This document shows, in pieces, positions 12,661 to 27,501 of a stretch of DNA of 64,000 bases. How positions within the stretch are numbered: position 1 is the stretch's first letter; each line of letters begins with the position of its first letter. The translations under genes were made by a program, and so were the position numbers. Location: assembly GCA_019739225.1 (NCBI GenBank), contig JAHHDT010000006.1:729501-793500 (forward strand), given 5' to 3'. The notes below the pieces were generated by a model. That model ran no database searches and was not told where the DNA came from. It worked only from the letters and a program-made list of their open reading frames with translations. The DNA is from Aquamicrobium sp. GTDB taxonomy: Bacteria > Pseudomonadota > Alphaproteobacteria > Rhizobiales > Rhizobiaceae.

Positions 12661-12676
12661 GATACCTGTGCGTATG
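12661..12676. promoter_or_regulatory. Degenerate operator upstream of tetR (CATACG-N4-CGTATG type)
   Basis: GATACCTGTGCGTATG matches the CATACG-N4-CGTATG pattern seen twice before nuoB-like, with one perfect half-site and two mismatches in the other. It lies 24 bp before the tetR start codon, a good position for autorepression. Confidence 0.5.
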
Positions 12677-12700
12677 GAGTTCTGAGCAAAGAAGGACAGC

Positions 12701-13291
12701 ATGCCCAGACGCAACACGTTGCAGCCGAAAGACTGGATACTGGGCGCAATGCACGCGCTCGCCGAAGGCGGCGTTGACGCGGTGTCGGTGGAACGCATAG
12801 CCAAGCAGCTCGGTGCCTCCAAGGGCTCGTTCTACTGGCACTTTGCAGACAGGCCCGCCCTGCTCGCAGCGGTGTTCGATCTCTGGGAACAGGAAGGCAC
12901 GGCCGATCTCATTGAACGCGCCAAGGCCGTTGCTGATCCAGTTGAGGGTCTGCGGGGTCTTGCACGAGATACGCTGGATGCAGAAACAAATGGGATCGAC
13001 GTGGCAAGGACCGAGGCTGCGATCCGCGCATGGGCATCGCGTGATCCGATAATAGGCAAACGCTTCGCCAAGGTTGAAGACGACCGTACGGCGTTTCTCG
13101 CACAGCAGATCGCGGCGCTTGGCTATGACCCCGAAATCGCCTTGCGGCTGAGCAAGATCATGCATCTGACCGTTGTAGGCCTGTTTGCCGCACGGGCATC
13201 GCGCTCGATGCTTGCCGAGGACGATACACTGACCTTCATGATCGAGCAGTTGATCGCCCACGCTCCAGGGAACGCGCTCCCCCATATATAG
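12701..13291 (+). CDS. TetR family transcriptional regulator of the nuoB-like module
   Basis: A 196-aa TetR regulator. The HTH is at about residues 10-55 ([20 protein letters not shown] followed by SKGSFYWHF). The remainder is a helical ligand-binding domain with no recognised class. AAGGACAGC before ATG 12701 is the ribosome site. It lies 85 bp upstream of the nuoB paralogue on the same strand, and three copies of one palindromic site flank it, so it probably represses itself and the downstream pair. The inducer is unknown. Confidence 0.88.
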
Positions 13292-13304
13292 CCGCACGTT
13301 TCTC

Positions 13305-13320
13305 CATACGGTTGCGTATG
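13305..13320. promoter_or_regulatory. Operator copy 1 upstream of nuoB paralogue
   Basis: CATACGGTTGCGTATG has perfect 6-bp arms CATACG/CGTATG with a 4-bp centre. It has the same arms and spacing as the perfect palindrome 39 bp downstream. Confidence 0.65.
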
Positions 13321-13343
13321 GACATTTCGATCTTCCTTGTTTA

Positions 13344-13359
13344 CATACGCATGCGTATG
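13344..13359. promoter_or_regulatory. Operator copy 2 upstream of nuoB paralogue (perfect palindrome)
   Basis: CATACGCATGCGTATG is a perfect 16-bp palindrome ending only 18 bp before the nuoB-like start codon, where bound repressor would block transcription. The centre-to-centre distance to copy 1 is 39 bp, close to four helical turns, so two dimers could sit on one DNA face. Confidence 0.7.
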
Positions 13360-13376
13360 GAATGGAGGGTTGTGGC

Positions 13377-13895
13377 ATGACAGCGTGGTCAGCTGCTGCT
13401 GAGAATGATTATGCCAATCTGTCTGATGACCTCGCCGACAAGGGCTTTATCGTCACAAGCACGCAGGCCCTTGTGACCTGGGCTCGTACCGGGTCGTTGA
13501 TGTGGATGACATTCGGGCTGGCGTGCTGCGCAGTGGAAGGACTGATGCACGCCTCGGGGCCGAGATACGATCTTGAGCGCTTCGGCGTGGCACCGCGAGG
13601 GTCGCCGCGTCAGTCAGACGTCATGATCGTTGCGGGAACACTCACCAACAAGATGGCCCCGGCATTGCGCAAGGTCTACGACCAGATGCCGGAACCGCGC
13701 TATGTGATCTCGATGGGATCGTGCGCCAATGGAGGTGGCTACTACCACTATTCATACTCGGTGGTGCGCGGTTGCGATCGTATCCTGCCGGTCGACATTT
13801 ACGTTCCCGGCTGTCCGCCTACCGCAGAAGCGCTGCTTTATGCGGTGCTGTTGCTGCAAAAGAAGATCCGCCGCACAGGCACGATCGAACGATGA
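13377..13895 (+). CDS. nuoB: Orphan NADH-quinone oxidoreductase subunit B (NuoB) paralogue
   Basis: A 172-aa NuoB homologue that would carry cluster N2 beside the ubiquinone site of complex I. All four N2 ligands are present: the tandem Cys pair in FGLACCAVE, Cys in [10 protein letters not shown] and Cys in [10 protein letters not shown]. The C-terminal half is near-canonical. The loop after the Cys pair reads [13 protein letters not shown], whereas from memory alphaproteobacterial NuoB has VEMMQTSMPRYD or similar, so the loop seems altered and one residue longer. GGAGGG 8 nt before ATG 13377 is the ribosome site. No other nuo gene is nearby; it is under a TetR operator and followed by a small membrane-protein gene. 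It may be an inducible replacement subunit. Confidence 0.9.
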
Positions 13896-13922
13896 CCTGC
13901 GGCCCGGCAAGAAGGCAACGCA

Positions 13923-14297
13923 ATGTTTGACCAGATTCTTTTCGGCATCGCAGGTGGTTTGGCGACAGTCTGGCTCGTCGTGCATTTGATCCTCGGCGGA
14001 AAGGAGGTGGTCGTGCCCATGCGCGCCGATCGGCACCTCGATCCGGTGGTCCGTGATACGCTGTACGTTGGCTGGCACTATATCTCCGTCAGCCTCGCCG
14101 CGATGGCCGCACTCTTCGTCGCCGCAATTTTCGCGGCGCGGGCGGACCTTGCGATGGCGGGAACTGTACTGGCTTGGGGCTTCACGCTCGTCGGCATCGG
14201 ACAGGTTCCAGCCATAGGTGCCAGCTACCGCGATCTTCCCCAAGGCTGGTTGTTTCTTCCCATCGCGCTTCTGGGCACCGTAGCCCTTCTTTTCTGA
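13923..14297 (+). CDS. Small integral membrane protein, unknown function
   Basis: A 124-aa protein with about four hydrophobic segments: ILFGIAGGLATVWLVVHLIL, a stretch around VSLAAMAALFVAAIFAA, MAGTVLAWGFTLVGIG and WLFLPIALLGTVALLF. I recognise no named family. It starts 27 bp after the nuoB-like gene with AAGGCAACGC before the ATG, so it is probably co-transcribed and under the same TetR control. It might partner the NuoB paralogue or be a separate membrane factor. Confidence 0.75.
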   Translation: MFDQILFGIAGGLATVWLVVHLILGGKEVVVPMRADRHLDPVVRDTLYVGWHYISVSLAAMAALFVAAIFAARADLAMAGTVLAWGFTLVGIGQVPAIGASYRDLPQGWLFLPIALLGTVALLF

Positions 14298-14370: not shown

Positions 14371-15324
14371 TCATTGCGCTGGCAGATTCTGGATGAAATC
14401 CGAAACGCGGTCGACAACGGTTCGCGCAGCAGCATCCGCAATTATGTGCCCCATGCCGTCAATGACTTCCAATGGTGCGCCAAGGACAGCCGCCGTGCTT
14501 TGCGCGTGATCTATCGGGAACCAAGGATCATCGCTTCCGTGAATGACGAGCGCGGGGGCCACGATCGTCTCCAACAGCGGTCGCCGGTCTCCCGTGGCCG
14601 TAACGGCAGATCCCTGCCTCGCGGCTGCGTTGGGATCAGCCGCCGCCGTATCCGCATCGACTCTCGCTGCGATCTCGTCATCCGACATCCGCACGGAAGC
14701 GTCACCTTCGAAAATTCGGTAGGCCTTTATCTGTGCCTCGACGAACTCCATCGAAGCGAAGGTTTGTGGATCTGAAAGTTTAGTAAGCGCTGGACCAAAG
14801 GGCAGGCCAGATTCGCCCGACGTCGCCGAAACGGAGATCAAGGAGAGCACACGCTGCGGATGCTGGGCGGCGACTACCTGTGCGATCATGCCGCCCAGCG
14901 AATGACCCAGCACATGCGCGCCATCGATGTTGGCTGCATCCAGAACGGCTATCGCGTCAGTCGCCATGTCAGACAGATCGTAGGCGACGGTGGGGCGCAA
15001 ACCGGCAGACAAAGCCGTCCGGATCGTCTCAGTTTGGGGCGGGGCGCCTGCGGTGCGCAGGATTGTGCTCTGTCCGGAATCGCGATTGTCGAATGTGACG
15101 ACCCTATATCCCTTTGAAAGAAATGCGTCGACCAAGGCGTCGTCGCCAATGCGCGTGCCCACGCCCTGGCCGTTGATAAGCATCACCGGCGGGCCATCTT
15201 CCGGACCCTGAACCCAGTAGCCGAGTTCAACTTCGCCATTGATGGCCCGCCCGGATTGGGTTTGCGCCGCACACGGCGCCAGGGACACAAGCAAAGCGAT
15301 GAGAATTGATGATATGCGCAACAT
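14371..15324 (-). CDS. Secreted alpha/beta hydrolase
   Basis: A 317-aa alpha/beta-hydrolase. The triad is visible: nucleophile Ser in GHSLGGMIAQ, Asp in VIHGSDDPWFP and His in DGMGHIIAD; the oxyanion region is LINGQGVGTR. The N-terminus MLRISSILIALLVSLAPCAA is a signal peptide, so it acts in the periplasm or outside. I start at ATG 15324 (GAGGA 5-9 nt upstream) rather than GTG 15366. It is an esterase or lipase of unknown substrate and monocistronic; it is the last clear chromosomal gene before the mobile element. Confidence 0.85.
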   Translation of the reverse strand: MLRISSILIALLVSLAPCAAQTQSGRAINGEVELGYWVQGPEDGPPVMLINGQGVGTRIGDDALVDAFLSKGYRVVTFDNRDSGQSTILRTAGAPPQTETIRTALSAGLRPTVAYDLSDMATDAIAVLDAANIDGAHVLGHSLGGMIAQVVAAQHPQRVLSLISVSATSGESGLPFGPALTKLSDPQTFASMEFVEAQIKAYRIFEGDASVRMSDDEIAARVDADTAAADPNAAARQGSAVTATGDRRPLLETIVAPALVIHGSDDPWFPIDHAQSTAAVLGAPLEVIDGMGHIIADAAARTVVDRVSDFIQNLPAQ

Positions 15325-15833
15325 GATTTTCCTCGCAGCATTACCGGTAGCGCGCGACAGCGTCACAAGCCGGTAGGGACTTTTGGCGAGCGATCAGCTC
15401 GCCGGTCGAGGCAGAAGGATGCGCTCATGACACCATCGGCGTTAGAGGCGAATCGGAGCGTATCGGGGCTTTTGCGCCAAACTGGTTCGGTGCGGTACGA
15501 CACCCTTTTGAAGACCGTCGGGCTCAGAAGTTCATATCCCGGCCTCGGATGCCGGCTCGACATTGCACTAACGACCTCTGACGACGAGCCTGACGGTTGT
15601 CCCTTCGCAGACAAAGCTAATCCATGACCCTTTGATGCAGGGTGAAGCCCGGAATGCTCTCTGAAATATGAAGCTGCCTCGCGGTGCAAACTGCCTGTCG
15701 GCAGGGGGCTTCAGTTGCAACGAACGCTTTCGACGCCCTCGATTTGGGGGGGCGCTTACCTGAACTTGCATGTCATAGAAGTGGCATGCGTCGGTGCTGC
15801 GCATTACCACATGGGTGGTGCTTGCAAACATTC
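15325..15833. other. Long stretch without a convincing gene, left flank of the mobile element
   Basis: About 500 bp with only short overlapping open frames on both strands. None has a ribosome site, a recognisable domain or sensible composition. It probably holds the promoter of the hydrolase gene at its left end and chromosomal sequence that was once next to the tRNA-Ser gene. Confidence 0.5.
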
Positions 15834-15847
15834 TGGCGGAGAGGGAG
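15834..15847. repeat. attL: direct repeat of the tRNA-Ser 3' end
   Basis: TGGCGGAGAGGGAG, identical to 35747-35760 and in the same orientation. It contains the CCA end, the discriminator base and the 3' acceptor strand of tRNA-Ser. The match stops after 14 bases, as expected when only a short core is shared between attB and attP. Confidence 0.8.
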
Positions 15848-15954
15848 TCCGCATAACCTCTATTCCGTTCGATTTCGGATCGTCCCAAAAGACGCGGGAT
15901 TATAAGCTTTGCAGCCCCTCAGCGTCTGGTACTATCCCGTTTTGTCGGGTATTA

Positions 15955-15986
15955 TCCCCACTACGAAATGGGGAAAGTAGTGGGGA
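15955..15986 (+). promoter_or_regulatory. Inverted repeat directly before the integrase start codon
   Basis: TCCCCACTAC (15955-15964) and GTAGTGGGGA (15977-15986) are perfect 10-bp arms around a 12-base loop. The right arm ends one base before the integrase ATG and contains its only purine-rich ribosome site, so the folded RNA would hide it. The loop plus right arm (15965-15986) also recurs at 35669-35690. It may serve as an integrase arm site, a translational switch, or both. Confidence 0.55.
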
Positions 15987-17219
15987 ATGACCCGCGCACT
16001 GCACAAACTCTCTGATGCCTACGCAAAGTCGGATCGGCTCAAGCCCGGCCGGCACAGCGACGGCGGGGGGCTCTATCTCAATGTCGCGCCCTCAGGGGCT
16101 AAGTCCTGGCTGTTCATGTGGTCGGTCGTCACCACGAAGGCAAACGGCTCAAAGGGACAGAAGCGCTATGAAATGGGCTTGGGTTCGTACCCGCTGATTT
16201 CCCTTGCCGATGCGCGCAAGAGCGCTGCCGACCATCGCCAGACCGTTGCACAGGGCGGCAATCCGATTGCCGAGCGTGACCGGGAGGACGAGCCGACCTT
16301 TGCCGATGCAACCACCAAGTTCCTCGCTTCAATGGAAAAGAGCTGGCGAAACGAAAAGCATCGGGGGCAGTGGCGTTCGACGCTGACAACGTATTGCGCG
16401 GCCATCAATGAGAAGCGGGTTTCGACCATCACCACGGAAGACGTTTTGACGGTTCTCAATCCGATCTGGAGCGAGAAGGCGGAAACGGCATCGCGAGTGC
16501 GGGGCCGGATTGAGCGCGTGTTGGACTTCTGCAAGGCCAAGGGCTGGCGACAGGGCGAAAACCCGGCCATGTGGCGCGGACACCTGAAGAACGTGCTACC
16601 GGCCCGCCAGAAGCTTACGCGGGGCCACCACACAGCGATGCCATATGCAGAGGTGCCCGCATTCCTTGAGCGCTTGCGTGGCTCTGATGCGATGGCGGCC
16701 AGGGCGCTGGAGTTCAATATTCTCTGTGCGACCCGATCCGGCGAAACCATCGGCGCGAAATGGTCGGAAATCGATTTCGATGCCGGCGTGTGGATCATCC
16801 CAAAGCAGCGCATGAAAGCGGGCAAAGAGCATCGCGTGCCGCTGTCCAAGCAAGCCGTCGCGCTTCTCGACCGTCTGAAAGAGACCAGAGAGGCCAAGGG
16901 ATACGTGTTTCCTGGCGAACGCAAGGATAAGCCGCTGTCGAACATGGCCATGGCGATGCTGCTCAAGCGCCTCAAGGTCGCGGTGACGGTGCATGGCTTC
17001 CGTTCCAGCTTTCGCGATTGGGCAGGCGATGCGACCAGCTTTCAGCGTGAGGTAGCCGAGGCAGCACTTGCGCATAGCGTCGGCAACGCCGTTGAGGCCG
17101 CTTACCGCCGTTCCGATGCTCTGGAGCGCCGCAGGAAGATGATGCAGGCTTGGGCTGACTATCTGGATACCAAGCAGGCGCGGGCCACAAAGGGCAAGGT
17201 GTTGGCCTTCCCGAGATAA
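15987..17219 (+). CDS. int: P4-type tyrosine recombinase/integrase
   Basis: A 410-aa integrase that excises and integrates the element. An N-terminal DUF4102-like arm-binding domain includes KPGRHSDGGGLYLNV (residues 18-32) and KRYEMGLGSYPLISLADAR. A SAM-like core-binding domain follows. The catalytic domain has Arg in CATRSGETIGAKW (about 250), the HxxR box HGFRSSFRDW (about 335), a second His in ALAHSVGN and the Tyr nucleophile in EAAYRRSD (about 373). It is full length and looks intact. It lies 140 bp from attL, at the end away from the intact tRNA. Confidence 0.95.
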   Translation: MTRALHKLSDAYAKSDRLKPGRHSDGGGLYLNVAPSGAKSWLFMWSVVTTKANGSKGQKRYEMGLGSYPLISLADARKSAADHRQTVAQGGNPIAERDREDEPTFADATTKFLASMEKSWRNEKHRGQWRSTLTTYCAAINEKRVSTITTEDVLTVLNPIWSEKAETASRVRGRIERVLDFCKAKGWRQGENPAMWRGHLKNVLPARQKLTRGHHTAMPYAEVPAFLERLRGSDAMAARALEFNILCATRSGETIGAKWSEIDFDAGVWIIPKQRMKAGKEHRVPLSKQAVALLDRLKETREAKGYVFPGERKDKPLSNMAMAMLLKRLKVAVTVHGFRSSFRDWAGDATSFQREVAEAALAHSVGNAVEAAYRRSDALERRRKMMQAWADYLDTKQARATKGKVLAFPR

Positions 17220-17312
17220 CCGAACCCGCAGGGATAGGCCGGCCAGCCGACAAGCCGGGGCGCACCTCCCGGTTTCCCTGTGGTTTCTAAGGTGCTTTCG
17301 CGAGGTGCAGCG

Positions 17313-17810
17313 ATGTCGGAGAGACGCGGGCCGCCGAAATGGGCACCGCCAGCCGTTGTCAGACGGTTCAACTCGGAACCCCGCCAAGTGTTCGGCAGCA
17401 TTGCGCCGCCTGACAATTTCGAGCAGCGGCTGGCAGCCTTTGCAGCCGCACGGGGCATCGATGTCTCGACTGCCGTCGGACGGCAGTTTGCCCTTGAGTT
17501 AGCTGCCAGGGGAAATCCCGAAGTTGCCGAAACTAAGCGAAGTGCTGGCCGGCCGTCTAAGGTAATTAACAGGCTTTTCCAGTCGGACGACACCGACATC
17601 TTGGAACTGCTGGAGACGGTTGCTGCGGGACGTTGCTTGTCGGATCGGAAGGTCTTGATCGAATTTATTTCAGAAAAGGAGCGTCAAGCTGGGCGCAAAC
17701 CCGACCCCAACAGCAGCCTGTTTCTCGCAGAGTTGCGAAGAATGCAGAACAAAGTTTCGGCCGCAAGGAGGCGTGTCGGGAAGCCAAAGCATCAAAAAAA
17801 ATCTGACTGA
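17313..17810 (+). CDS. Hypothetical protein of the element
   Basis: A 165-aa basic protein that I do not recognise. The N-terminus is Pro/Arg-rich (MSERRGPPKWAPPAVVRRFN). The middle, FEQRLAAFAAARGIDVSTAV, looks helical, and the C-terminus is very basic (RRVGKPKHQKKSD). Together these suggest nucleic-acid binding. ATG 17313 follows GAGGTG; an in-frame GTG at 17280 would add 11 residues. It lies just downstream of int on the same strand. Confidence 0.6.
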   Translation: MSERRGPPKWAPPAVVRRFNSEPRQVFGSIAPPDNFEQRLAAFAAARGIDVSTAVGRQFALELAARGNPEVAETKRSAGRPSKVINRLFQSDDTDILELLETVAAGRCLSDRKVLIEFISEKERQAGRKPDPNSSLFLAELRRMQNKVSAARRRVGKPKHQKKSD

Positions 17811-17844
17811 ATTCTCAATGATATTCTGAGGCCCTGACCGTCTT

Positions 17845-17919
17845 CATATTCGCATCGTCAACAGGACGGAACAACCTCAACGGGACGTTCCGAACCAAGG
17901 AAAGGACGATGCGAATATG
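17845..17919. promoter_or_regulatory. Nested inverted repeats over the start of the HTH gene
   Basis: CATATTCGCATCGTC (17845-17859) and GACGATGCGAATATG (17905-17919) are perfect 15-bp arms. Inside the 45-base loop, CGGAAC (17867) pairs with GTTCCG (17887). The right outer arm ends in the ATG of the AlpA-like gene. It could be an operator for that protein or an RNA fold that hides its start codon. Confidence 0.6.
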
Positions 17920-18096
17920 ACTATCTCTTTGAATATTCGGCAGGCGGTCGAGGCGAGCGGACTGACGCGTTCGCACCTCTATATCGCCATGAGCGACGGC
18001 AAGCTGACGGCTCGCAAGGCTGGCAGGCGCACCATCATCATGGCCGACGACTTGCGCCGCTACGTCGAGAGCCTCCCCACTGCGCGGGAGGGCTGA
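17917..18096 (+). CDS. AlpA/excisionase-like helix-turn-helix protein
   Basis: A 59-aa protein starting MTISLNIRQAVEASGLTRSH and continuing LYIAMSDGKLTARKAGRRTI, then MADDLRRYVESLP. This is the MerR-like winged HTH of phage AlpA/Xis proteins and 'helix-turn-helix domain' proteins. Such proteins regulate integrase expression or help excision (family knowledge). It sits downstream of int, and its start codon is inside a 15-bp inverted repeat. It is short but well supported by domain, position and a following gene 2 bp away. Confidence 0.8.
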   Translation: MTISLNIRQAVEASGLTRSHLYIAMSDGKLTARKAGRRTIIMADDLRRYVESLPTAREG

Positions 18097-18100
18097 CGTG

Positions 18101-18466
18101 ATGCAGAAAGTACGAAAGCCGGTCGTGTGCAAGACGACCGGCCTCCAGAAAATCGAAATGCTCGCCAGCAAATTCGAACCTCAGGACCCTAGCCCAAACC
18201 CCCGGCAGCTTCAAGCGCTTCGCCTTCGCGAGCGGTTCCCGCTGTCATGGCCTTTGGCTCGTCTCACGGCCGAATTGGCATTTCGGGGAGGCGCGAGCAT
18301 GACCCCGCAAACGCTCCAGGCGGCGCACTGGCTTCTCAGCCACGGCGACCGCCGCGCCAACCCTATCGTCCCGACAATCCGCCGCCAGTTCGGTCTCACC
18401 GCTGTGCAGGCAATCGACGCGATCCGCGAGGCGAACCGCCTGCGCGCGTCCGAGCACAAGGAATAG
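18101..18466 (+). CDS. Hypothetical phage-type protein, possibly two fused small genes
   Basis: A 121-aa reading frame. The second half, from ATG 18299 (MTPQTLQAAHWLLSHGDRRA, then PTIRRQFGLTAVQAIDAIRE), looks like a separate small phage protein and has its own strong ribosome site (GGGGAGGCGAGC). The first half has LRERFPLSWPLARLTAELAF, which resembles the C-terminus of a different small protein. Either one fused gene or two genes whose intervening stop was lost. Function unknown. Confidence 0.55.
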   Translation: MQKVRKPVVCKTTGLQKIEMLASKFEPQDPSPNPRQLQALRLRERFPLSWPLARLTAELAFRGGASMTPQTLQAAHWLLSHGDRRANPIVPTIRRQFGLTAVQAIDAIREANRLRASEHKE

Positions 18467-18470
18467 CACC

Positions 18471-18767
18471 ATGCGCAACACTACCCTCACCATCATTGCC
18501 AAGATCGAGCCGGACGGTGCTACCGTCACCGTGAAGGGCCGGGATGCTTGGGCGCTTCAGGAACTCATCAAAGCCGGCAAGGCGGGCTGCACTCCCATTA
18601 CGCACCCCGGCCCCCGCTGGAGCGCCTACGTTCTCAAGCTGCGCAAGCATGGTTTCGTTATCGAAACGATCCATGAGGCGCACACAGGACCGTTCCCCGG
18701 CACTCATGCCCGGTACGTGCTGCGCTCTCAGGTCTCCGTTATCGAGGAAGACGCAAGGGCTGCCTGA
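18471..18767 (+). CDS. Small winged-helix domain protein
   Basis: A 98-aa protein. WALQELIKAGKAGCTPITHP, then RWSAYVLKLRKHGFVIET and a basic wing region, fit a compact winged-helix fold of the kind found in phage regulatory or replication modules. It ends in an overlap (TGATG) with the next gene, so translation is coupled. The DNA target is unknown. Confidence 0.65.
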   Translation: MRNTTLTIIAKIEPDGATVTVKGRDAWALQELIKAGKAGCTPITHPGPRWSAYVLKLRKHGFVIETIHEAHTGPFPGTHARYVLRSQVSVIEEDARAA

Positions 18768-19315
18768 TGAGCGCGCGCGAGTTCAGCAAGGTTTCCCCGG
18801 CCGTATGGCGGTCGGGGAGATTCCGCCGCCTTTCGGGGCAAATGTCGAAACAGGTGTATCTCTACTTCATCACGAATAGCCATGTGAATTCGGCCGGATG
18901 CTATCCATTGCCGGACCTGTACGCGTGCGCCGATCTAGATTGCGAGGCTGAAGTCTACACAGCGGCGCGAGACGAGTTGTTGGCCGGTGAATTGATTGAC
19001 CACGATCCGGACACCGCAGAAATTCTCATAGAGCGCTGGTTTCGCCACAACCCGCCGATGAATCCGAACCACTACAAGGGAACGTCAAAGCTGGTGTCCG
19101 AAGTCGAATCCGACCGCCTGCGTGAGAAGGCCGAGGAAGCACTCTCCGAGGCTTGGCAGGCATACCAAAAGCGCAAGGAAGAGGACGAGACACGGCGACA
19201 GATCGAAGCCGCTCAGAAGGAGGCGGCCAAGTCTCCCCGGGGATACGGGACACTCCAGCCAGTGGGTGCGAGCAGCTATCTACTGAACACCCGTCACATG
19301 AAAGGGGGTGGCTGA
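18767..19315 (+). CDS. Phage replication-organiser-like protein (N-terminal domain)
   Basis: A 182-aa protein. SPAVWRSGRFRRLSGQMSKQ and VYLYFITNSHVNSAGCYPLP, followed by EILIERWFRHNPPMNPNH, resemble the N-terminal domain of phage replication initiators (DnaD/RepO-like organisers). A charged helix (SEAWQAYQKRKEEDETRRQI) follows. It lacks the usual C-terminal domain; the next overlapping frame may be its displaced continuation. Confidence 0.6.
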   Translation: MSAREFSKVSPAVWRSGRFRRLSGQMSKQVYLYFITNSHVNSAGCYPLPDLYACADLDCEAEVYTAARDELLAGELIDHDPDTAEILIERWFRHNPPMNPNHYKGTSKLVSEVESDRLREKAEEALSEAWQAYQKRKEEDETRRQIEAAQKEAAKSPRGYGTLQPVGASSYLLNTRHMKGGG

Positions 19316-19482
19316 TGTGCCCGACACAACCCTATCCAAACCGTTTGCATACCGTTTCGATACCTAGTTTTTCGCTCTGGAAACCGTATCGAAATACCGA
19401 GACCCAAACACAGACCAGAGACCTAGACCCCCGTGCGCACTCGCGAGGGTCGTTCGCGGTGGAAATGTCAATGGGCTTATGA
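19315..19482 (+). CDS. Small frame after the replication protein, possible displaced C-terminus
   Basis: A 55-aa frame starting in the TGATG overlap of the previous gene. NRLHTVSIPSFSLWKPYRNT followed by ETQTQTRDLDPR resembles the Thr/Gln/Asp-rich linker of phage replication initiators, so a frameshift may have split one gene. The DNA also holds an inverted repeat, TTTCGATAC (19355) with GTATCGAAA (19386). Function uncertain. Confidence 0.4.
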   Translation: MCPTQPYPNRLHTVSIPSFSLWKPYRNTETQTQTRDLDPRAHSRGSFAVEMSMGL

Positions 19483-19632
19483 GAGGGAGCCAAGCGTCAG
19501 CGTTAGCGCTTTTTCCGAGAACTGGCCCCTTGTCAGCGAGGAATCTGTCTAGGGCGGTAAGAAGGCTGGATCTGATTGGTTACGGCAACCGAGAGTTGGC
19601 GAAAGCTCACCGATGTGGAAGCGTCAATCAGA

Positions 19633-20394
19633 TCACGCCGCCTTGTCAAATGCCTCTCGTGTTCTGCCAAAAGGTACGACCACGTCCGCAGCCTCACTGA
19701 GCAACACCTTGTCTGCTTGGCTAGTACGCTCAGAGTTGGTGAGCATAACGGTTCGCCGCACAGGGTCATCGAGGCGGGCGATATCCGTGAATTTGACGAA
19801 AGTGGAATTTATCGAAACGTGGCTCGGCGATACCAGCTCGATAAGACGGGGGGTCCTTTCGCGCATAATGGCCACGTCGAAGCGCCACTTTTTTAGCGAC
19901 CGCCCGCGCATTTCGTAGTCGAACTGCGCCTGACCTCCGAAAAACTCCCGTACCGTGGCCCGGAACACTTCCGTTAGGTCATGGTCGCGTTCCTCGCCAA
20001 GTTTCTGTGCGGTTTGCTCCACCGTTTTGCGGCTAGCGGACCCGACGAACAGAACGGCATTTGCCAGCCATTCGCGAGTAACGCGGGTCGTGAAAAAGCA
20101 GCTGCCGTCATATTCGACGCCGTGGAACTGAGCAATTTGAGGGGCTAGGCGAGCAAAAACAGTCGTTCCACCGAGGTGTTCAGCTTCCATATAGCCGTTC
20201 CCTTGGTCGCTTACATAAAACTCATCGTCATGGCCTCGAACGCGCACGACAACGGACGCGCCGCCCGGATACGTTTGGGGAAGCGCAATAAGCCCTTCGC
20301 CTTGATCGACGCCAGTAACCACCAGTTCTTTGGCGACTTCGTCGACAAGTGCTTGCATTGACATGTCTCGGTTCAAACCAGCTGTCGCGACCAT
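19633..20394 (-). CDS. DUF1828-domain-like protein of a two-gene accessory cassette
   Basis: A 253-aa protein. The N-terminal ~90 residues have the DUF1828-like pattern of a beta-rich domain ending in FYVSDQGNGYMEAEHLGG ('D-x-G' turn after a hydrophobic strand). The C-terminal part has FDYEMRGRSLKKWRFDVAIM and ends DVVVPFGRTREAFDKAA, reminiscent of a nuclease-like or DNA-interacting fold, which I cannot confirm. ATG 20394 overlaps the upstream gene by 22 bases. The pair faces the other way from the surrounding phage genes, as cargo (often defence or toxin-related) genes do. Confidence 0.6.
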   Translation of the reverse strand: MVATAGLNRDMSMQALVDEVAKELVVTGVDQGEGLIALPQTYPGGASVVVRVRGHDDEFYVSDQGNGYMEAEHLGGTTVFARLAPQIAQFHGVEYDGSCFFTTRVTREWLANAVLFVGSASRKTVEQTAQKLGEERDHDLTEVFRATVREFFGGQAQFDYEMRGRSLKKWRFDVAIMRERTPRLIELVSPSHVSINSTFVKFTDIARLDDPVRRTVMLTNSERTSQADKVLLSEAADVVVPFGRTREAFDKAA

Positions 20395-20918
20395 ACCGGC
20401 TCCTCCACCCAGAATTCAGGAATTACAAACTCATCCCGAACAAGCACCATAACTTCTTCGAATCTAACAAACTCTTGCTCGATAGGGAATGCGAGCGGGA
20501 GGCGCCCTTCGGGTCGAAACGCATCCAGGCCGAGATATCTATTCGGCCCAAATCGGTGGATTTGCCGTCCTCGAACCACAGGTGGCGCGCCGTGCGGGTT
20601 TAACGGGTTGCGATGCGGCTTGATAGGGTTCTCGGGGTCAAATTCAATTCTGCCGAGGTGGAACGTTGCCCCACGGATAGATGCAAATAGCAAGGCAACA
20701 AGGCCATAGAAGGGCCGCGATGCGGGTGTCGACCTCGGGCCACGCAGCAAAAGGCGAGAGCCACCAATCTGCGCACCATCGATTGCCAATGGCAGGCTCA
20801 GGGAGATGTACTCAGCATTCCCTTTATGTTCCGTGATCCATTCGCCAACGCTTACCGGGCTTTTCGGCGAAGTCGCAATCGTTTCCAAATCGAGCAGTAT
20901 TTCGTCGTCCCGCCCCAA
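20373..20918 (-). CDS. Hypothetical partner protein of the DUF1828-like gene
   Basis: A 181-aa protein that I do not recognise. It begins MGRDDEILLDLETIATS and has a His/Arg/Pro-rich middle (IKPHRNPLNPHGAPPVV, then QIHRFGPNRYLGLDAF) and an aromatic, acidic C-terminus. The TTG start is favoured by GGAGGGGGCG just upstream. It is the first gene of a two-gene minus-strand operon, overlapping the DUF1828-like gene by 22 bases, which implies coupled expression and possibly a complex. Confidence 0.6.
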   Translation of the reverse strand: MGRDDEILLDLETIATSPKSPVSVGEWITEHKGNAEYISLSLPLAIDGAQIGGSRLLLRGPRSTPASRPFYGLVALLFASIRGATFHLGRIEFDPENPIKPHRNPLNPHGAPPVVRGRQIHRFGPNRYLGLDAFRPEGRLPLAFPIEQEFVRFEEVMVLVRDEFVIPEFWVEEPVWSRQLV

Positions 20919-21108
20919 ACGCCCCCTCCCTAACTCACCGTTGCCGCGATCTAAGCGGGAATCTCAGCATCCAACAAGTGTGGCGGCCTCCGCCTGGGGC
21001 TGAAATCTCGATGGCCATTTCCACTCCCAGTAATCACAAACACGTGAAGTTGTGGAAAGCAGCCCCCCTGTGCGGACGTAGCGGCACAACGGGAAACGCA
21101 ATAGGACG

Positions 21109-21122
21109 ATACCGGACGGTAT
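21109..21122. promoter_or_regulatory. Inverted repeat upstream of the RHH gene
   Basis: ATACCGGACGGTAT has perfect 6-bp arms and a 2-bp centre, 83 bp before the ribbon-helix-helix gene. RHH proteins bind such short palindromes, so it may be the autoregulatory operator. Confidence 0.35.
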
Positions 21123-21205
21123 GTAAGTAATTGAGATAAAATGACTTTCTGTTACTCCATGCGAGCGAACGGTGGTATCGTGTCTTCAATGATTTGGAGA
21201 CAGAG

Positions 21206-21361
21206 ATGCGATTTTCCGAACCAATGGATGGCATGCTTCGAGTGAGGGTGGCGCGGGACGAAAAGCGCCGTCTAGCCGAGGTTGCCCGCAAGCGTGGCCT
21301 GACTCTTTCCGACTTCCTTCGCCAGACGGCGACCGAGGCGGCGCAGCGGGTGGCGGTGTAG
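21206..21361 (+). CDS. Ribbon-helix-helix (Arc/CopG-like) DNA-binding protein
   Basis: A 51-aa protein. MLRVRVARDEKRRLAEVARK followed by RGLTLSDFLRQTATEAA shows the beta-strand, helix, turn and helix of the RHH fold. GGAG lies 8 nt before ATG 21206. It is the first plus-strand gene after the minus cassette and may repress the phage-like gene run that follows. Confidence 0.75.
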   Translation: MRFSEPMDGMLRVRVARDEKRRLAEVARKRGLTLSDFLRQTATEAAQRVAV

Positions 21362-21363
21362 TC

Positions 21364-21561
21364 ATGGCCGTCTATGCCCCGCGCATCAGCCTACGCCAGC
21401 TCGTGCGGCTTCATCACCGTGATTGCCTGCCTATGCGCCATGTCCTGGCTGAGGCTCGTCGTGGCAGCCTTCCGGGCGTCGAGCCGGTAGCGGGTGGATC
21501 GGGTTTTGCCGTTATCGACCGTAGCGCGGCGCTTGCGGCCATCCGTAAGAGGGCTGCGTGA
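21364..21561 (+). CDS. Small basic hypothetical protein
   Basis: 65 aa, starting 2 bp after the RHH gene and ending in a TGATG overlap with the next. It is Arg/His-rich (ISLRQLVRLHHRDCLPMRHV). No family recognised; its packing in the operon is the main evidence. Confidence 0.5.
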   Translation: MAVYAPRISLRQLVRLHHRDCLPMRHVLAEARRGSLPGVEPVAGGSGFAVIDRSAALAAIRKRAA

Positions 21562-21818
21562 TGTTCTCTCCCGGCAAGCTAGGCGGCAGCATTTCGAGCC
21601 AGACCAATCCGACCAACTACTTCCCGCCCGCGCCACCGATGGACGGGTTCAATCCGTTCCAGCTCAACGTCGATCAGCGTGACGCCATCGTGAACGCTGC
21701 AAACAGCATGGAGCGCGATAACCAGATGCGCCCGCTTCAGCCCGCCCCGTTCCCCGGCGGTCCCAGTCCGGATGGGCAACAGCTCCTGCGCATCCTCGCC
21801 AACATGAGAGGCCGCTAA
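21561..21818 (+). CDS. Small Pro/Gln-rich protein, probable virion-associated
   Basis: An 85-aa, Pro-, Asn- and Gln-rich protein (NPTNYFPPAPPMDGFNPFQL) that starts inside the previous stop and abuts the 443-aa protein. The composition and position resemble the small protein preceding ejection proteins in podovirus-like genomes. This is inference from context. Confidence 0.5.
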   Translation: MFSPGKLGGSISSQTNPTNYFPPAPPMDGFNPFQLNVDQRDAIVNAANSMERDNQMRPLQPAPFPGGPSPDGQQLLRILANMRGR

Positions 21819-23149
21819 TGCTTCCCTACATCCCCCCTTCGATGATGGACCCGGAAAGGCTGGCTGCTGCCGGTCTTGGTTCGCAGGCTGAGCTTGTCGC
21901 GCGGCTCTATGGCACCGATGCGATATTCAATCAGCAGCAGATGCCGCAGCAGTCCGGCGACATGCCGCCAGCATTCGAACAGTCAGGCTCGGCCCTGCGT
22001 CCTCGCACGACCTCAATGAGCAACGAGGCGCATCCAGGTTTCGAGCCGGGCAATCAGCCTCGCGGCGGGCAACCTCAGGGTGGCGGTGGTTTCCTGTCCG
22101 GCATCTCGGATTGGCTGAGCGGCGGTAAGCGCCAAAAGGTCAATCAGACGGTCAACTGGCTCCAGCAGCAGGGCTTGGACGAGGGTACGGCGCGCGGCCT
22201 CGCTGCCAACCCGCCGCTGTTGCAGCACTATCTCAAGCAGTACGTCGATGCGCGCGACCCCCGCAATCAACTGGAGTTCGAGAAGACCCAGCTTGAGGTG
22301 GAAAACCTTCGTAATCCGCGCATGTCACCATACGAATCCAGCCGCCTCGGTCTCGATGAACGCAAGTTCGATTTCGAACGCTCCAATGCCGAGAAGACCA
22401 ACGACATTCGCGAATATCAGCAGGCCAAGCGCGAAGGCTACGAAGGCGATTTCCGCACATGGCAAATGGAGATGAAGCAGGCCGGCGCGACCACCATCAA
22501 CAACAACATGGCGGCAGAGAAGGCATGGGACACGGAAAGCGCCAAGCTATGGGCGAAGCGCTACGACGACATAACCGCAGGCGCGATGAACTCGCAGCAG
22601 ATGCTTGGCATGTACGACCTCGCTGAACAGGCGTTTGACAGCGGGGTGCGTACCGGTTTCGGGGCTGAGACTGAATTGACCCTTCGCCAGTTGGGTGCAG
22701 CCATGGGGCTTGATACCGACCCGGCAAAGCTGGCCGGTGGCGAGTTGATCCGTTCGGTTCAAAACCGCATGGCCCTGATGATGCGTTCGCCTGACGGCGG
22801 CATGGGTATGCCCGGCGCACTGTCCGACCGTGACATCAAGTTCCTGAAGGATTCACAGATCGGCATCGATCGCTCGCCTGAAGGCAATAAGCGCATGCTG
22901 CAAGCCTATCGCCTGATGGAACAGCGCAAGATTGAAATCGCCCGCATTGCTGACGAGTACGTGCAGCAGAATGGCCGGCTTGATGCCGGGTTCAACTCGT
23001 ATCTCCGCGACTACGCAAATGCGAACCCGCTTTTCGAGACCGCGACTAATGACGCCCCGCGCCAGATTATGGACGTGGAGGATTACAAGCGGCTTCCGAG
23101 CGGAACGCAATTCATTGCCCCTGACGGCACGGTTCGGAGGAAACCCTGA
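21818..23149 (+). CDS. Phage ejection/internal virion-like protein
   Basis: A 443-aa protein rich in Gln and charged residues. A disordered N-terminal ~100 residues with GGQPQGGGGFLSGISDWLSG precedes a long helical region (about 130-380, e.g. EFEKTQLEVENLRNP, MEMKQAGATTINNN). Such proteins are internal to podovirus particles and are injected with the DNA (family knowledge). It lies in a run of ATGA/TGATG overlaps with a 667-aa partner. No capsid or portal gene precedes it, which is odd. Confidence 0.5.
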   Translation: MLPYIPPSMMDPERLAAAGLGSQAELVARLYGTDAIFNQQQMPQQSGDMPPAFEQSGSALRPRTTSMSNEAHPGFEPGNQPRGGQPQGGGGFLSGISDWLSGGKRQKVNQTVNWLQQQGLDEGTARGLAANPPLLQHYLKQYVDARDPRNQLEFEKTQLEVENLRNPRMSPYESSRLGLDERKFDFERSNAEKTNDIREYQQAKREGYEGDFRTWQMEMKQAGATTINNNMAAEKAWDTESAKLWAKRYDDITAGAMNSQQMLGMYDLAEQAFDSGVRTGFGAETELTLRQLGAAMGLDTDPAKLAGGELIRSVQNRMALMMRSPDGGMGMPGALSDRDIKFLKDSQIGIDRSPEGNKRMLQAYRLMEQRKIEIARIADEYVQQNGRLDAGFNSYLRDYANANPLFETATNDAPRQIMDVEDYKRLPSGTQFIAPDGTVRRKP

Positions 23150-25152
23150 TGGCCAACTGGTGGGAATCCGTACCCGTCGTCAGCCAGCCGCAGAACTGGT
23201 GGGACGCAGCACCGATTGTCGGTGAACAGGCGGCACAAGGTCATGCCGGTGTGCCGAAGTTCATTCCTCCTGGCGTCGAAGGCTACGACCCCGAAACCGG
23301 GCTGGTCGAGCGCCAGCCTGCTAGATCCTCTGCGCCGGCTCTCCAGTCCGCGCTTTCGGGCTTTGTGGAAGGCATCCCGGTTGCCGGCCCCTACCTGCAA
23401 TCCGGTGTCGAGAACGCGGCAGCTTTCGCCGGCGCGACACTCACGGGCCGGCCACAGGAGGAAGTTCGCGCGGAAATGGGGCAGATGGTCGATGAGGCCG
23501 CTGCACAGCATCCGTATGTCAACACAGCGGCAAGCTTGGCGGGGGGTATCGCGGGCACATTGCCGGCCGTCGCCGCCGCGCCGGGTCTGTTTGGTGCCAA
23601 TGCCGGCCCTCTAGCCATGCGTGCGCTGGCTGGCGGTGCATCCGGTGCAGCTATCGGCGGCGCGGATGCCGGCGTGCGCCATGGTGCCGATGCAATCATC
23701 CCTGGCGCAGTTACGGGCGGTGCTATCGGGGCCCTCGCGCCCGCGCTCAGCGATGCGGTTGGCGGTCTAGGGCGGTGGGCTTATCGCAAGGCTGCGGGTG
23801 TCACGCCGGCTCAGGGCCATCTTGGACGCGCGGCCGGTGCCGATGCGATCGATGATATGGGCGCGCGCCTTTCGGCTCTTGGTCCCGACGCAATGCCAAT
23901 GGACCTTGGCCCCAACCTCAGGGGGCAGGCCGGCGCAATCGCCACTACTCCGGGACGCGGGCAAGAGGTGGTTCGCTCTGCGGTGACGGGTCGTCAGGCT
24001 CGCGCCGGCTCGCGTATTGCCGGTGCTCTGGACGATGCCCTTGGCGCTCCGGTGGATACCGTTGCCCTTGCCGACGATATCATTGCCCAGCGTTCGGCTG
24101 CTGCAAAGCCGCTCTATAACGCAGCCTATTCCAAGCCCGTGCCATTCACGCAGGAGCTGGAAGACCTGTTGAAGCGTCCTTCGGTCGGTCGCGCCATGCA
24201 GTCAGCACGTCGTCTAGCAGCCGATGATGAGACGTTCAGTGCTGCAACGCGTGGCTGGTTTGCCAACGTCGCTGATGACGGTGCCGTAACGATTACCAGA
24301 ACGCCTAGCGTCTACGAACTGGACATGACCAAGCGCGCGCTTGATGACATGTATTCCACCGCGCAGCGGGCCGGGAACAACAATGAGGCCCGCATCTTCG
24401 ACCAGCTCCGCAAGAAGCTTATCGGCTTTGTGGATGACGCTGTGCCGGAATACAAGCAGGCGCGGGCTGCGTTCTCCGGTCCTGCTTCGGTTCTGGATTC
24501 GCTGGAGGAAGGCCAGAAGGTCTTTTCCCGCAATCTGACCCCGAGCCAGCTTCGCACGCAGATGATGAAGATGGGCGATGCGGAGAAGGACGCCTTTGTG
24601 CAGGGCGCACGTGCCGAAATCGCAAAGACCATGGGCACGGCTCGCAATGATGCGCTGAAGGCCCGTCAGCTATTCGATGCGGGCTGGAACAAGGAAAAGC
24701 TGGGCATCATCCTGGGGGATGAACAGGCCTCGCGTCTGCTGCAATCCTTGCACGCCGAAGCGACGTTCGCGGCCACCAATCAGGAAATCACCGGGCAATC
24801 TGTAACGGCCGGCCGTCAGATGGCGCAGAAGGATTTGGGTATCCGTGGCAGTGATGAGCGCGGAATGCTTCGGTCTGCCCTCAACCTCAATGTGGGTGAC
24901 TCCCTCGCTCGCCTTGGTGACCGCCTCACTGGTGGCGTTCGGACGGCATGGAACGAGAAGAACCTGAGCGAACTTGGCGAGCTGCTCACCTCGCGCGATC
25001 CAAAGGCCATGACGCGGGTCATCAAGACCGTCCAGGCTGCGCAGCGCAGGGGAGACCTTACGGCTGCGAAAGCGCGCGAGATTATCCAGAGCCTTGCAGT
25101 CGGTTCGTCGCCCCGTCAGCCGCTTGAGCTGACTGTCACGCCCGCCCGGTGA
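23149..25152 (+). CDS. Large phage ejection-like protein with glycine-rich hydrophobic region
   Basis: A 667-aa protein. The N-terminus has a repeated motif, NWWESVPVV (residues 3-11) and NWWDAAPIV (about 17-25). Residues ~125-215 form Gly/Ala-rich hydrophobic stretches (ASLAGGIAGTLPAVAAAPGL, GGAIGALAPALSDAVGG) like glycine zippers that insert in membranes. The C-terminal 350 residues are helical and charged. Together these suggest a DNA-ejection protein crossing the cell envelope. I recognise no lytic transglycosylase motif. The TGATG overlap with the previous gene supports the start. Confidence 0.5.
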   Translation: MANWWESVPVVSQPQNWWDAAPIVGEQAAQGHAGVPKFIPPGVEGYDPETGLVERQPARSSAPALQSALSGFVEGIPVAGPYLQSGVENAAAFAGATLTGRPQEEVRAEMGQMVDEAAAQHPYVNTAASLAGGIAGTLPAVAAAPGLFGANAGPLAMRALAGGASGAAIGGADAGVRHGADAIIPGAVTGGAIGALAPALSDAVGGLGRWAYRKAAGVTPAQGHLGRAAGADAIDDMGARLSALGPDAMPMDLGPNLRGQAGAIATTPGRGQEVVRSAVTGRQARAGSRIAGALDDALGAPVDTVALADDIIAQRSAAAKPLYNAAYSKPVPFTQELEDLLKRPSVGRAMQSARRLAADDETFSAATRGWFANVADDGAVTITRTPSVYELDMTKRALDDMYSTAQRAGNNNEARIFDQLRKKLIGFVDDAVPEYKQARAAFSGPASVLDSLEEGQKVFSRNLTPSQLRTQMMKMGDAEKDAFVQGARAEIAKTMGTARNDALKARQLFDAGWNKEKLGIILGDEQASRLLQSLHAEATFAATNQEITGQSVTAGRQMAQKDLGIRGSDERGMLRSALNLNVGDSLARLGDRLTGGVRTAWNEKNLSELGELLTSRDPKAMTRVIKTVQAAQRRGDLTAAKAREIIQSLAVGSSPRQPLELTVTPAR

Positions 25153-25408
25153 CCCGAGCCTTGAGCGAAGCCCACACCCTGTCCCAGCCCTTCAGGAGCA
25201 AATGAACAGCACCGAAATAGAGACCGCCGCCGATGAGAGCCATGGCGACAATAACGGGTACGTCGTAGGCCGGTATGTCTGCGAAGTCGCCGCGCGAAAA
25301 GGAGAGCCCGATTCCGAGGATTACAGCCGTCGTGATGATGGAAATCGCTGTGGCCTTGGGCTTCGCCGCTTTCGGGGCTTGCTCAGTCTCATGCGGTCTC
25401 TGGTCCAT
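25136..25408 (-). CDS. Small two-TM membrane protein
   Basis: A 90-aa protein: a basic N-terminus, then two hydrophobic segments (AISIITTAVILGIGLSFS and VPVIVAMALIGGGLYFGAVH) and a basic tail. Its 3' end overlaps the 667-aa gene by 17 bases on the other strand. The size and topology resemble holins or small phage membrane proteins, but no lysis genes are adjacent. The start is unsure; in-frame TTG 25474 is an alternative. Confidence 0.5.
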   Translation of the reverse strand: MDQRPHETEQAPKAAKPKATAISIITTAVILGIGLSFSRGDFADIPAYDVPVIVAMALIGGGLYFGAVHLLLKGWDRVWASLKARVTGRA

Positions 25409-25458
25409 GGGCGAAGCCGTCCGTTCGGGTGCTGTACAGAGAATATAGGCGGAAACCG

Positions 25459-25818
25459 ATGAAAGCGGAAGCAAACACCCCCGGCAGCTCTATCCCGACC
25501 ATTCTTGACGTGATGGAAGCTGTCAGCGCGCGCCTGACGGATGCCGTTCTTGATCCGACGAACCCGGAAGAACTGGACGCCGTCACAGGTGCCATTGCGC
25601 AGGTCTACGGCGGTGGCGCAAGCACGGAAGCCGAACTGTCCAACCTCATCATCTATGCGCACGGGTGTCACGAGATGGCGGCCGTGTACCGTCAGCAAAG
25701 GAATGAGGACAACGCCGACCTCTATCACGCCATCGGGCAGGACATGCTCACAAAGGCTCTGTTTGCGGTCGAGAACCTGACCGTTCAGAGCCTCGATATT
25801 CTCGGAGGGCGTCAGTGA
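25459..25818 (+). CDS. Hypothetical phage protein
   Basis: 119 aa, acidic and helical (TILDVMEAVSARLTDAVLDP, HEMAAVYRQQRNEDNADLYH). Not recognised. It ends in a TGATG overlap with the C39-like gene, so it belongs to the same plus-strand operon. Confidence 0.6.
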   Translation: MKAEANTPGSSIPTILDVMEAVSARLTDAVLDPTNPEELDAVTGAIAQVYGGGASTEAELSNLIIYAHGCHEMAAVYRQQRNEDNADLYHAIGQDMLTKALFAVENLTVQSLDILGGRQ

Positions 25819-26291
25819 TGGGCACCTACGTCCCCCAGCGCACCCACGACGACTGCATGATTGCGGCTTTTGCTACCGCGACCGATCGCACCTATGAGGA
25901 AGTCGCAGAGGCGTTTGGCGTGCCGTGCAATGGCGATGGGTATCCCTCATTGCCTCCGGTGGGCGGTGTCAATCTCCTGGGGGTCCCGGTGCCGCTTCTG
26001 TCGCTAGGCTTCAATGCCGTCCTATGCCTGTCTACAGAGGCCACAGGTAACCCCTCGCTACGCCTGCCTACCTCCGATGCTCTCAAGACCCTGCTGCCGT
26101 CGCGAACAGCCGTGGTGACAGCCCCCGATGCTCATTTGCGAGTGCTGGGCATTCAGCACGCGATGGCATGGAAGGACAGCGCGGTCATCGATTGCCGAGA
26201 GCCGGAAGGCAAAGGCCCCAAGCTGGACCGGCTCACCCTCTCAGCCGTGGTGCTCCTTACGCCGATCAACGACAGAGAGGTAGTGGACTGA
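25818..26291 (+). CDS. C39-like cysteine peptidase-fold protein
   Basis: A 157-aa protein. QRTHDDCMIAAFATATDRTY gives a Cys near residue 13 at the start of a helix; HAMAWKDSAVIDCRE near residue 112 gives His and Asp. This is the Cys-His-Asp order of C39/papain-like folds seen in phage and bacteriocin modules. It could be an active protease or an inactive relative. It is translationally coupled on both sides. Confidence 0.55.
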   Translation: MGTYVPQRTHDDCMIAAFATATDRTYEEVAEAFGVPCNGDGYPSLPPVGGVNLLGVPVPLLSLGFNAVLCLSTEATGNPSLRLPTSDALKTLLPSRTAVVTAPDAHLRVLGIQHAMAWKDSAVIDCREPEGKGPKLDRLTLSAVVLLTPINDREVVD

Positions 26292-26560
26292 TGCTTAGCA
26301 AGGACCAGCTTGCATTCGTCAGAGAGTATTTCGTTGATGTGAACGCTACCGCTGCCGCCAAGCGGATCGGCCGTGAGGGCGCAACGGCTTCGTCTTTCGC
26401 TGCCGAGTGCATGGACAGCCCTACCGTCAAAAGCGTCATCAGCGCCGTGTGGCAGCACATCATGGATGATGTCGCAGTCAATGGCCGCGCTCTGCATCAT
26501 CCCCTGCCAGAGCAGGGCAAGGAACAGGCTTTCATCATCATCGAGACGGGCTCAGCATGA
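26291..26560 (+). CDS. Small-terminase-like protein, short
   Basis: An 89-aa protein. LSKDQLAFVREYFVDVNATA, then AAKRIGREGATASSFAAECM, is like the HTH N-terminus of small terminase subunits (Fv-eY-vD-NAt-AA). The C-terminal oligomerisation region is missing, so it is a fragment or a minimal DNA-binding derivative. It is coupled to the DUF5681 gene by an ATGA overlap. Confidence 0.55.
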   Translation: MLSKDQLAFVREYFVDVNATAAAKRIGREGATASSFAAECMDSPTVKSVISAVWQHIMDDVAVNGRALHHPLPEQGKEQAFIIIETGSA

Positions 26561-26997
26561 CGGACAAGCAATCCGAACCGCCGAAGGAAACGCGCTTTCA
26601 GCCGGGGCAGTCAGGCAACCCACGCGGCAGGCGTGCCGGTTCGCGCTCCAAGGCACTTGTCGCTCTGGACGCGCTTGGGGAGGGCGAGGTGCAGGACATC
26701 GTCAAGGCAATCATGGAAAAGGCCAAGGAAGGGGACGCACAGGCCGCGCGGATCATCCTTGATCGGGTGTGGCCGCCCCGAAAGGGAACGCGCTTTGAGT
26801 TCGATCTGCCCGAGGTTTCGAAGGCGGAGGACATCCCCGGCGCGATTGGCGAGGTCACGGCACAGGTTGCGGAGGGCATCATCTCGCCTGACGAGGGAGC
26901 CGTCATCGTTGGGCTACTGGACGCGCGGCGCAAGGCTATCGAGACCGAACAGCTAGCGAGCAGGATTGCAGCACTTGAGGCGAGGGCCGCGCTATGA
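26557..26997 (+). CDS. DUF5681 domain protein (terminase-associated family)
   Basis: A 146-aa protein. The N-terminal TRFQPGQSGNPRGRRAGSRS is the DUF5681 hallmark (FkPGqSGNPkGRP). It is followed by a helical region (GDAQAARIILDRVWPPRKGT) and a coiled C-terminus. Such proteins lie just before large terminase genes in rhizobial phages (family knowledge). Here no large terminase follows, only three tiny coiled-coil genes. Confidence 0.75.
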   Translation: MTDKQSEPPKETRFQPGQSGNPRGRRAGSRSKALVALDALGEGEVQDIVKAIMEKAKEGDAQAARIILDRVWPPRKGTRFEFDLPEVSKAEDIPGAIGEVTAQVAEGIISPDEGAVIVGLLDARRKAIETEQLASRIAALEARAAL

Positions 26998-27251: not shown

Positions 27252-27501
27252 CGTTCTGGAATCGCGATTGCGCAGGCTGGAGGACATGACGCGCGGTTCA
27301 CAGGGCATTGTCTCGCGTGTGGTCCGCGTCGTGGCTCCTGCTGGCTGGGATGGGGATGCCAATGCACTGCTGAGGCAGAGCGGTTATGCAGCATCGCCAG
27401 AGGGGCGCGACATCGTCATCACCCGGCTTATCGTGACGCCAGAGGGCAGGCCGTCAAGCCAGATCGAGCCGCGCATCCTGAGCGTGAGCGGAGGAGCTTG
27501 A
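27244..27501 (+). CDS. Small protein, RLxxLE type copy 2
   Basis: 85 aa, starting MRNVLESRLRRLEDM. The rest is more beta-like (GIVSRVVRVVAPAGWDGD, RDIVITRLIVTPEGR). It overlaps the previous gene by 8 bases and is followed by another member one base later. Confidence 0.6.
   Translation: MRNVLESRLRRLEDMTRGSQGIVSRVVRVVAPAGWDGDANALLRQSGYAASPEGRDIVITRLIVTPEGRPSSQIEPRILSVSGGA

Follow-up and report, generated by a model that had tools for sequence, protein, structure and literature searches.

An orphan nuoB with an altered quinone loop beside a TetR gene and its probable operators: a candidate inducible subunit swap in complex I

The novobiocin-resistant gyrB of producer organisms is an inducible, resistant copy of the drug target. 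Among respiratory enzymes, CcoN4 of Pseudomonas aeruginosa is described in excerpts of two reports as an orphan cbb3 oxidase subunit that is induced by cyanide via the regulator MpaR and aids cyanide resistance (PMC10790758, PMC5697931). Within complex I, Caenorhabditis elegans nduf-2.2 appears in an excerpted account as a tissue-restricted NDUFS2 paralogue, 96% identical to the main copy (PMC11265314), and within the same bacterial family Sinorhizobium megaplasmids carry an extra NuoB (~51-52% identical). Literature searches on spare or orphan nuoB, complex I inhibitor resistance, duplication and self-resistance returned no system of the kind presented here, and no complex I precedent for an inducible subunit swap, among the matches listed.

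Here we describe such a candidate in a 64,000-nucleotide stretch of an Aquamicrobium genome (the window). A tetR gene, two palindromes, an orphan nuoB (hereafter nuoB*) and a small membrane-protein gene follow one another on the plus strand, with an alpha/beta hydrolase gene on the opposite strand (Table 1). A preliminary description of this DNA had proposed a lone nuoB behind a TetR gene and two CATACG-N4-CGTATG palindromes, which profile matches and exact sites confirm; its caveat that this might be the only nuoB in the genome falls away, as the genome holds one further NuoB match, a canonical protein 84% identical to NuoB*, encoded on another contig between nuoA and nuoC of the nuo operon. 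Our best reading, to which we give roughly even odds (about 0.5), is an inducible subunit swap that would remodel the quinone pocket of complex I.

Table 1. Positions of the cassette features within the window.
Feature	Position	Strand	Remark
Degenerate third operator GATACC-TGTG-CGTATG (2 mismatches), weak candidate	12661..12676		before tetR
tetR, TetR-family regulator, presumably repressor, 196 aa	12701..13291	+	Pfam TetR_N 1e-12
Probable operator O1 CATACG-GTTG-CGTATG	13305..13320		exact palindrome
Inferred promoter TGGACA-N17-TACATA, overlapping O1 and O2	13319..13347	+	GGACATT and spacing kept in 3 cassettes
Probable operator O2 CATACG-CATG-CGTATG	13344..13359		39 bp from O1
Orphan nuoB*, 172 aa	13377..13895	+	NCBIfam NuoB 6e-76
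Small membrane protein, 124 residues, four predicted helices	13923..14297	+	kept in 3/3 cassettes
Alpha/beta hydrolase, possible cargo	14371..15366	-	faces membrane-protein gene

Like the resistant gyrB, NuoB* would be a second, altered target copy under its own control, but its target is a single subunit within a many-subunit membrane complex. The nearest parallel, by analogy, appears to be CcoN4/MpaR: there too an orphan respiratory core subunit sits beside its regulator with a palindromic operator, and as with CcoN4 a canonical copy of NuoB* exists elsewhere and the neighbouring regulator looks dedicated, to judge from sequence alone. CcoN4, however, belongs to an oxidase rather than to complex I; its inducer and its exchange into the operon-made complex have been demonstrated, whereas an inducer, an exchange and a similar poison tolerance are proposals for NuoB*; and in the excerpted reports MpaR is required for expression (PMC10790758, PMC5697931), unlike the cassette TetR, which belongs to a family that is usually of the repressor type. 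The worm nduf-2.2, as excerpted, is likewise a second version, under separate expression control, of a complex I core subunit at the quinone site, and it can take over from the main copy, but it is a NuoD-type subunit and carries no link to a poison in that account (PMC11265314). The second NuoB of Sinorhizobium is diverged and often has nuoA under the same match (in the annotated cases), whereas NuoB* stands alone and is close to the main copy.

The cassette is present in further genomes. Of the eight searched in the genus, G002 is the one other in which a second close NuoB occurs, within the same cassette, and a pattern search of 394 family genomes with inspection of the loci revealed a third cassette in another genus (G693); a canonical nuoB lies elsewhere in all three genomes. 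At the 34 loci inspected from the order and family pattern searches, nuoC adjoins in 30 (nuoA too in 24), three are the cassettes, and the last (L128) is truncated by its contig end and shows nuoA alone; two further family pattern matches came without a locus and lie outside these 34. The three settings differ: the window cassette adjoins recQ, that of G002 a molybdopterin oxidase gene (recognised by eye), and that of G693 lies elsewhere. An AraC-type regulator, read by eye, is found near the cassette in both G002 and G693, and an AHSA1-type gene adjoins it in both (confirmed by Pfam in G693, by eye in G002). In the window, the cassette lies in a variable stretch, with similarity to the close relative G003 ending at 12556, just upstream of recQ. 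Across the cassettes the window's TetR is 82% (G002) and 81% (G693) identical to its counterparts and the membrane protein 65% and 66%; in every case nuoB* is the gene that immediately follows the operators, and the three NuoB* proteins form one clade (support 99/91 in a tree built without the insert columns described below). As a separate observation, a phage-like element (15834-35760) starts directly after the hydrolase gene and leaves the cassette just outside; it has an integrase (15987-17219) and large ORFs at 21818-25152, and a 14-bp repeat at its left end, TGGCGGAGAGGGAG, is common to a tRNA-Ser gene at 35747-35836.

The regulator has the helix-turn-helix domain of TetR_N and palindromic sites at its presumed target promoter, as expected of a TetR-family protein. 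Exact matches to CATACG-N4-CGTATG occur in the whole 5.35-Mb genome only at O1 and O2; by simple arithmetic, about 0.004 would be expected in a random 64-kb sequence. The pair is spaced 39 bp start to start in all three cassettes (with one mismatch in one copy in G693). A TetR relative on Sinorhizobium medicae pSymA, 46% identical by tblastn against plasmids and 41% in a second comparison, has the pair upstream with the 39-bp spacing preserved, one copy being exact and the other having one mismatch. Allowing up to three mismatches, the double palindrome was found in 4 of 100 relatives, namely the two cassettes of the genus plus G034 (one mismatch) and G040 (two), which come from other families of the order and in both of which a regulator from the same TetR family (34% and 28% identical, respectively) adjoins the pair, divergent from a small membrane-protein gene. 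Because the 39-bp register is kept both in the cassettes and beside related TetRs elsewhere, six loci in all (three cassettes, S. medicae L163, G034 and G040), the pair is very probably the operator of this TetR, which supports the earlier suggestion of a dedicated regulator with its own operators. A Shinella relative (37%) has just two weaker sites, 37 bp apart. At the S. medicae locus (L163, 2879-4564) the double-operator TetR is divergent from DUF6463 and AHSA1/SRPBCC genes, and in G040 (L170, 4657-5589) the TetR/operator module is followed by a pair of small membrane proteins that includes a DUF3995 member.

The preliminary description had counted three matching operators; two are exact, but the third is weak. 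It has two mismatches, and as statistical evidence it was rejected, since loose matches (up to three mismatches) number 19 in the window against 20.5 expected. We retain it as a weak candidate for its position alone: it ends 24 nt before the tetR start, and a two-mismatch site lies at the same distance in G693, though not in G002, making two of three cassettes. A scan for consensus sigma-70 promoters flagged none at the operators, and the promoter in Table 1 is our own reading.

The conserved cysteines of NuoB are ligands of cluster N2. In NuoB* these residues (C50, C51, C116, C146) are invariant across 28 aligned sequences, as befits a member of the family, and Cys50 and Cys51 presumably bind N2. 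Just beyond them, after CCAVE, a glycine (Gly55, codon 13539-13541) is inserted: phmmer alignment with PDB chains placed one additional residue directly before the methionine pair of Paracoccus NuoB (8qby_B), whose loop reads VE-MMQTSMPRYD, and the same insertion holds against mammalian chains. In addition, Leu56 replaces the first methionine of the pair, Met57 is retained, and Gly61 replaces the methionine preceding Pro62; residue 45 is Thr. NuoB* therefore falls outside the canonical Met-Met loop type (CCAVE-MM, no insert) and is not a plain copy of the operon NuoB. In the excerpted structural account, where the pair is Met59/Met60 in bovine numbering, the Met60 side chain is directed at the middle of the ubiquinone head group, with Met59 nearby (PMC9503403), so that the changes in NuoB* fall in the quinone-contacting loop, in keeping with the initial idea of a replacement quinone-pocket subunit. 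Comparison of the orphans gave dN of 0.03-0.06 against dS of 0.7-1.1, and nuoB* is by this measure under strong purifying selection. Its likely start is 13377, with an in-frame ATG further upstream at 13362; the predicted fold (mean pLDDT 43, from 28 sequences) was left out of the evidence.

Since the insert adjoins two N2 cysteines and a TetR could sense an electrophile, NuoB* might instead be a spare from which complex I is rebuilt after electrophile or metal harm to the iron-sulphur cluster. We regard this as very improbable: a canonical sequence would suffice for such a repair, and an altered quinone loop would not be needed.

The inserted loop is a natural variant. An exact 24-base degenerate pattern, which other codings could escape, matched 6/397 genomes of the order, 31/394 of the family and 2/398 of the phylum; both phylum matches come from this one family, in the window's own genome and in G194. 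Outside the three cassettes there are 32 insert genomes (28 of the family, four of other families of the order), and in the family carriers among them the loop lies in the nuo operon wherever inspected. A single NuoB was found in 29 of the 32 (23/25 at E<=1e-30 and 6/7 at E<=0.001); 2 of the 25 carry an additional 55% relative (E<=1e-30), and G764, whose assembly is 81% complete and gave three NuoB matches, was set aside. In G764 (L128, L139, L141, L142) the insert pattern is present in two of those three matches, and the assembly is possibly a mixed bin. At least two carriers occur among the 80 named loci listed, Agrobacterium vitis S00303 and A. cavarae, both with operon copies, and 24 of the 92 distinct NuoB rows gathered have the insert. 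Since 29 of the 32 genomes have no other close NuoB, the inserted loop appears functional.

The same count would suit a physiological optimum equally well, and the main rival to our reading is accordingly that NuoB* adjusts quinone affinity or limits superoxide and reverse electron transfer, with the TetR sensing a metabolite or quinone when the quinone pool or oxygen changes. CcoN4, too, acts in biofilms apart from cyanide, according to the excerpted report (PMC5697931). Against this, the dedicated TetR, the membrane protein (3/3 cassettes), the hydrolase (2/3) and the three settings suggest, in our judgement, a response to a foreign compound, and we consider physiological tuning the less likely account, if a serious one.

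The insert forms one clade when the insert columns are kept in the alignment and requires three changes when they are removed; a single origin was therefore rejected as a conclusion, as the outcome depends on those columns. With NuoC, the hypothesis that the insert genomes form a single clade is rejected (11 rows vs 57, p-AU 0.0002); with NuoD, trait residues masked, it is not (11 vs 70, p-AU 0.095). The linked changes in NuoB and NuoD may reflect co-selection or piecewise transfer.

These linked changes concern the GPxHP loop of NuoD, which we take to hold the head-group histidine. That placement is consistent with PMC9503403. The loop reads GPEHPSAHG in 11/11 insert operons and GPQHPAAHG in 70/70 canonical operons, counts that cover only NuoD reading GPQ or GPE and leave two Devosia loci outside. 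A survey with an open expression took in 115 loci, of which one stub (101 bp) and six loci without NuoD were dropped, leaving 108; at three loci the NuoB was missed by the survey expression and then displayed separately. The combinations were insert, Gln45 and NuoD E/S (29 loci); insert, Thr45 and NuoD Q/A (one locus, G070); canonical NuoB, Thr45 and NuoD Q/A (75 loci); Ser45 with NuoD Q/A in Bartonella (one locus); and no insert, Gln45 and NuoD V/S in Devosia (L076 and L084). Gln45 thus pairs with NuoD Ser in 31/31 and Thr or Ser45 with NuoD Ala in 77/77, although the loci are related and the counts are not independent events. In these sequences residue 45 is strictly tied to the NuoD change, whereas the insert itself is not.

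All three orphans carry Thr45, and each host has a single NuoD, of the Q/A type; NuoB* thus suits the NuoD that it would encounter in its host, which lends indirect support to its inferred place in an assembled complex I. The orphan's own combination has one natural precedent, G070 (one contig, 99% complete; insert, Thr45 and Ala with a single NuoB), because in 29 of the 30 insert operons with NuoD read, NuoD is also E/S and NuoB has Gln45 (NuoD was read in all 32 non-cassette insert genomes except G481, G631, G679 and G764). Two side observations concern NuoD. The Devosia loci join Gln45-Thr46 with GPVHPSAHG, a third quinone-loop combination, and in the insert operons (L005, L006, L171-L179) Leu is replaced by Met at columns 118 (11/11) and 130 (10/11) of the aligned NuoD reference, changes found in 0/70 canonical operons.

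The small membrane protein, which the preliminary description thought might belong to the system, is present in all three cassettes. It matched no Pfam family at its cut-off; a single-sequence model gave four helices (pLDDT 69.5), with no Foldseek match in the PDB at E<=0.001. Homologues (E<=1e-6) were found in 4 other genomes of 289 of the class and in one plasmid record, that is, five outside the cassettes (Phaeobacter, G772, G882, G891 and G994). The idea that it always accompanies the TetR was rejected: a related TetR lies in the fetched stretch of just two of the five (Phaeobacter and G772, where the operator pair is absent) and in that of none of G882, G891 and G994. The small membrane proteins beside the TetRs of G034 and G040 share 22% identity and a common motif in alignment, and tblastn with the cassette protein did not find them at E<=1e-3; we treat them as look-alikes, common descent with the cassette protein being unproven by sequence. 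Ten residues are common to the eight aligned membrane proteins (H21, G25, G26, P32, W51, H52, A84, P106, Q107 and F111), and hhalign found no relation between an alignment of the membrane protein and the S. medicae DUF6463 protein. We infer that regulator and small membrane protein are the older pair and nuoB* the newcomer.

In a further alternative, the TetR/membrane-protein module acts against a hydrophobic compound and nuoB* travels along with no benefit through complex I. Consistent with it, TetR and a membrane-protein homologue occur together without nuoB in Phaeobacter and G772, and in S. medicae, G034 and G040 the same operator pair, with a related TetR, precedes different small membrane-protein genes. 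A mere passenger, however, would hardly be expected to stand first after the operators in 3/3 cassettes, under strong purifying selection, in one clade, with a residue 45 that fits the host NuoD, and we think this alternative improbable. The hydrolase adjoins the cassette in G002 too; the stretch fetched from G693 showed none. A role as an inhibitor-destroying enzyme was rejected on that absence and because its best NCBIfam models are macrolide esterases, far below their cut-offs; it is possibly cargo.

In the subunit swap that we favour, ligand-free TetR on O1 and O2 would keep nuoB* and the membrane-protein gene off, until the repressor binds a hydrophobic ligand and leaves the DNA; this ligand would most likely be an inhibitor of the quinone site or a poison resembling quinone. 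The NuoB* then made would compete with operon NuoB during complex I assembly and join the host's own NuoD, and its extra glycine and lost methionines would reshape the head-group pocket beside cluster N2, giving new complexes that still reduce ubiquinone but bind the poison less tightly. From the locus we infer repression and the entry of NuoB* into complex I; the TetR ligand and the resistance are our guess, although protection from a quinone-site inhibitor seems the likeliest purpose of the predicted swap. Because membrane-protein homologues and regulator relatives exist without nuoB, induction by something other than a complex I poison is also conceivable. The interpretation first put forward for this DNA, an inducible target swap against quinone-site poisons, is thus partly supported from sequence data; the natural loop type in other genomes, the co-variation of residue 45 with NuoD and the match between orphan and host go beyond it.

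From bacteria to mammals, the loop that follows the N2 cysteines shows high conservation, as judged from aligned PDB chains, and the mode of quinone and inhibitor binding at this site is a matter of continuing debate in the excerpted literature (PMC9503403). A natural insert in what is often the only close NuoB, with a neighbouring residue that co-varies with NuoD, offers ready variants for models of quinone binding. For the Rhizobiales, we tentatively propose that two interchangeable quinone-pocket types exist, one with a fixed-length Met-Met loop and one with a glycine-inserted loop, usually with a co-evolved NuoD, and that some members may keep the second as a TetR-controlled, inducible single-subunit target swap against a quinone-site poison. 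If nuoB* is induced by an inhibitor, it would be, to our knowledge, the first inducible resistance by a complex I subunit swap, and would suggest that bacteria of soil and plants encounter natural poisons of complex I that are yet to be discovered.
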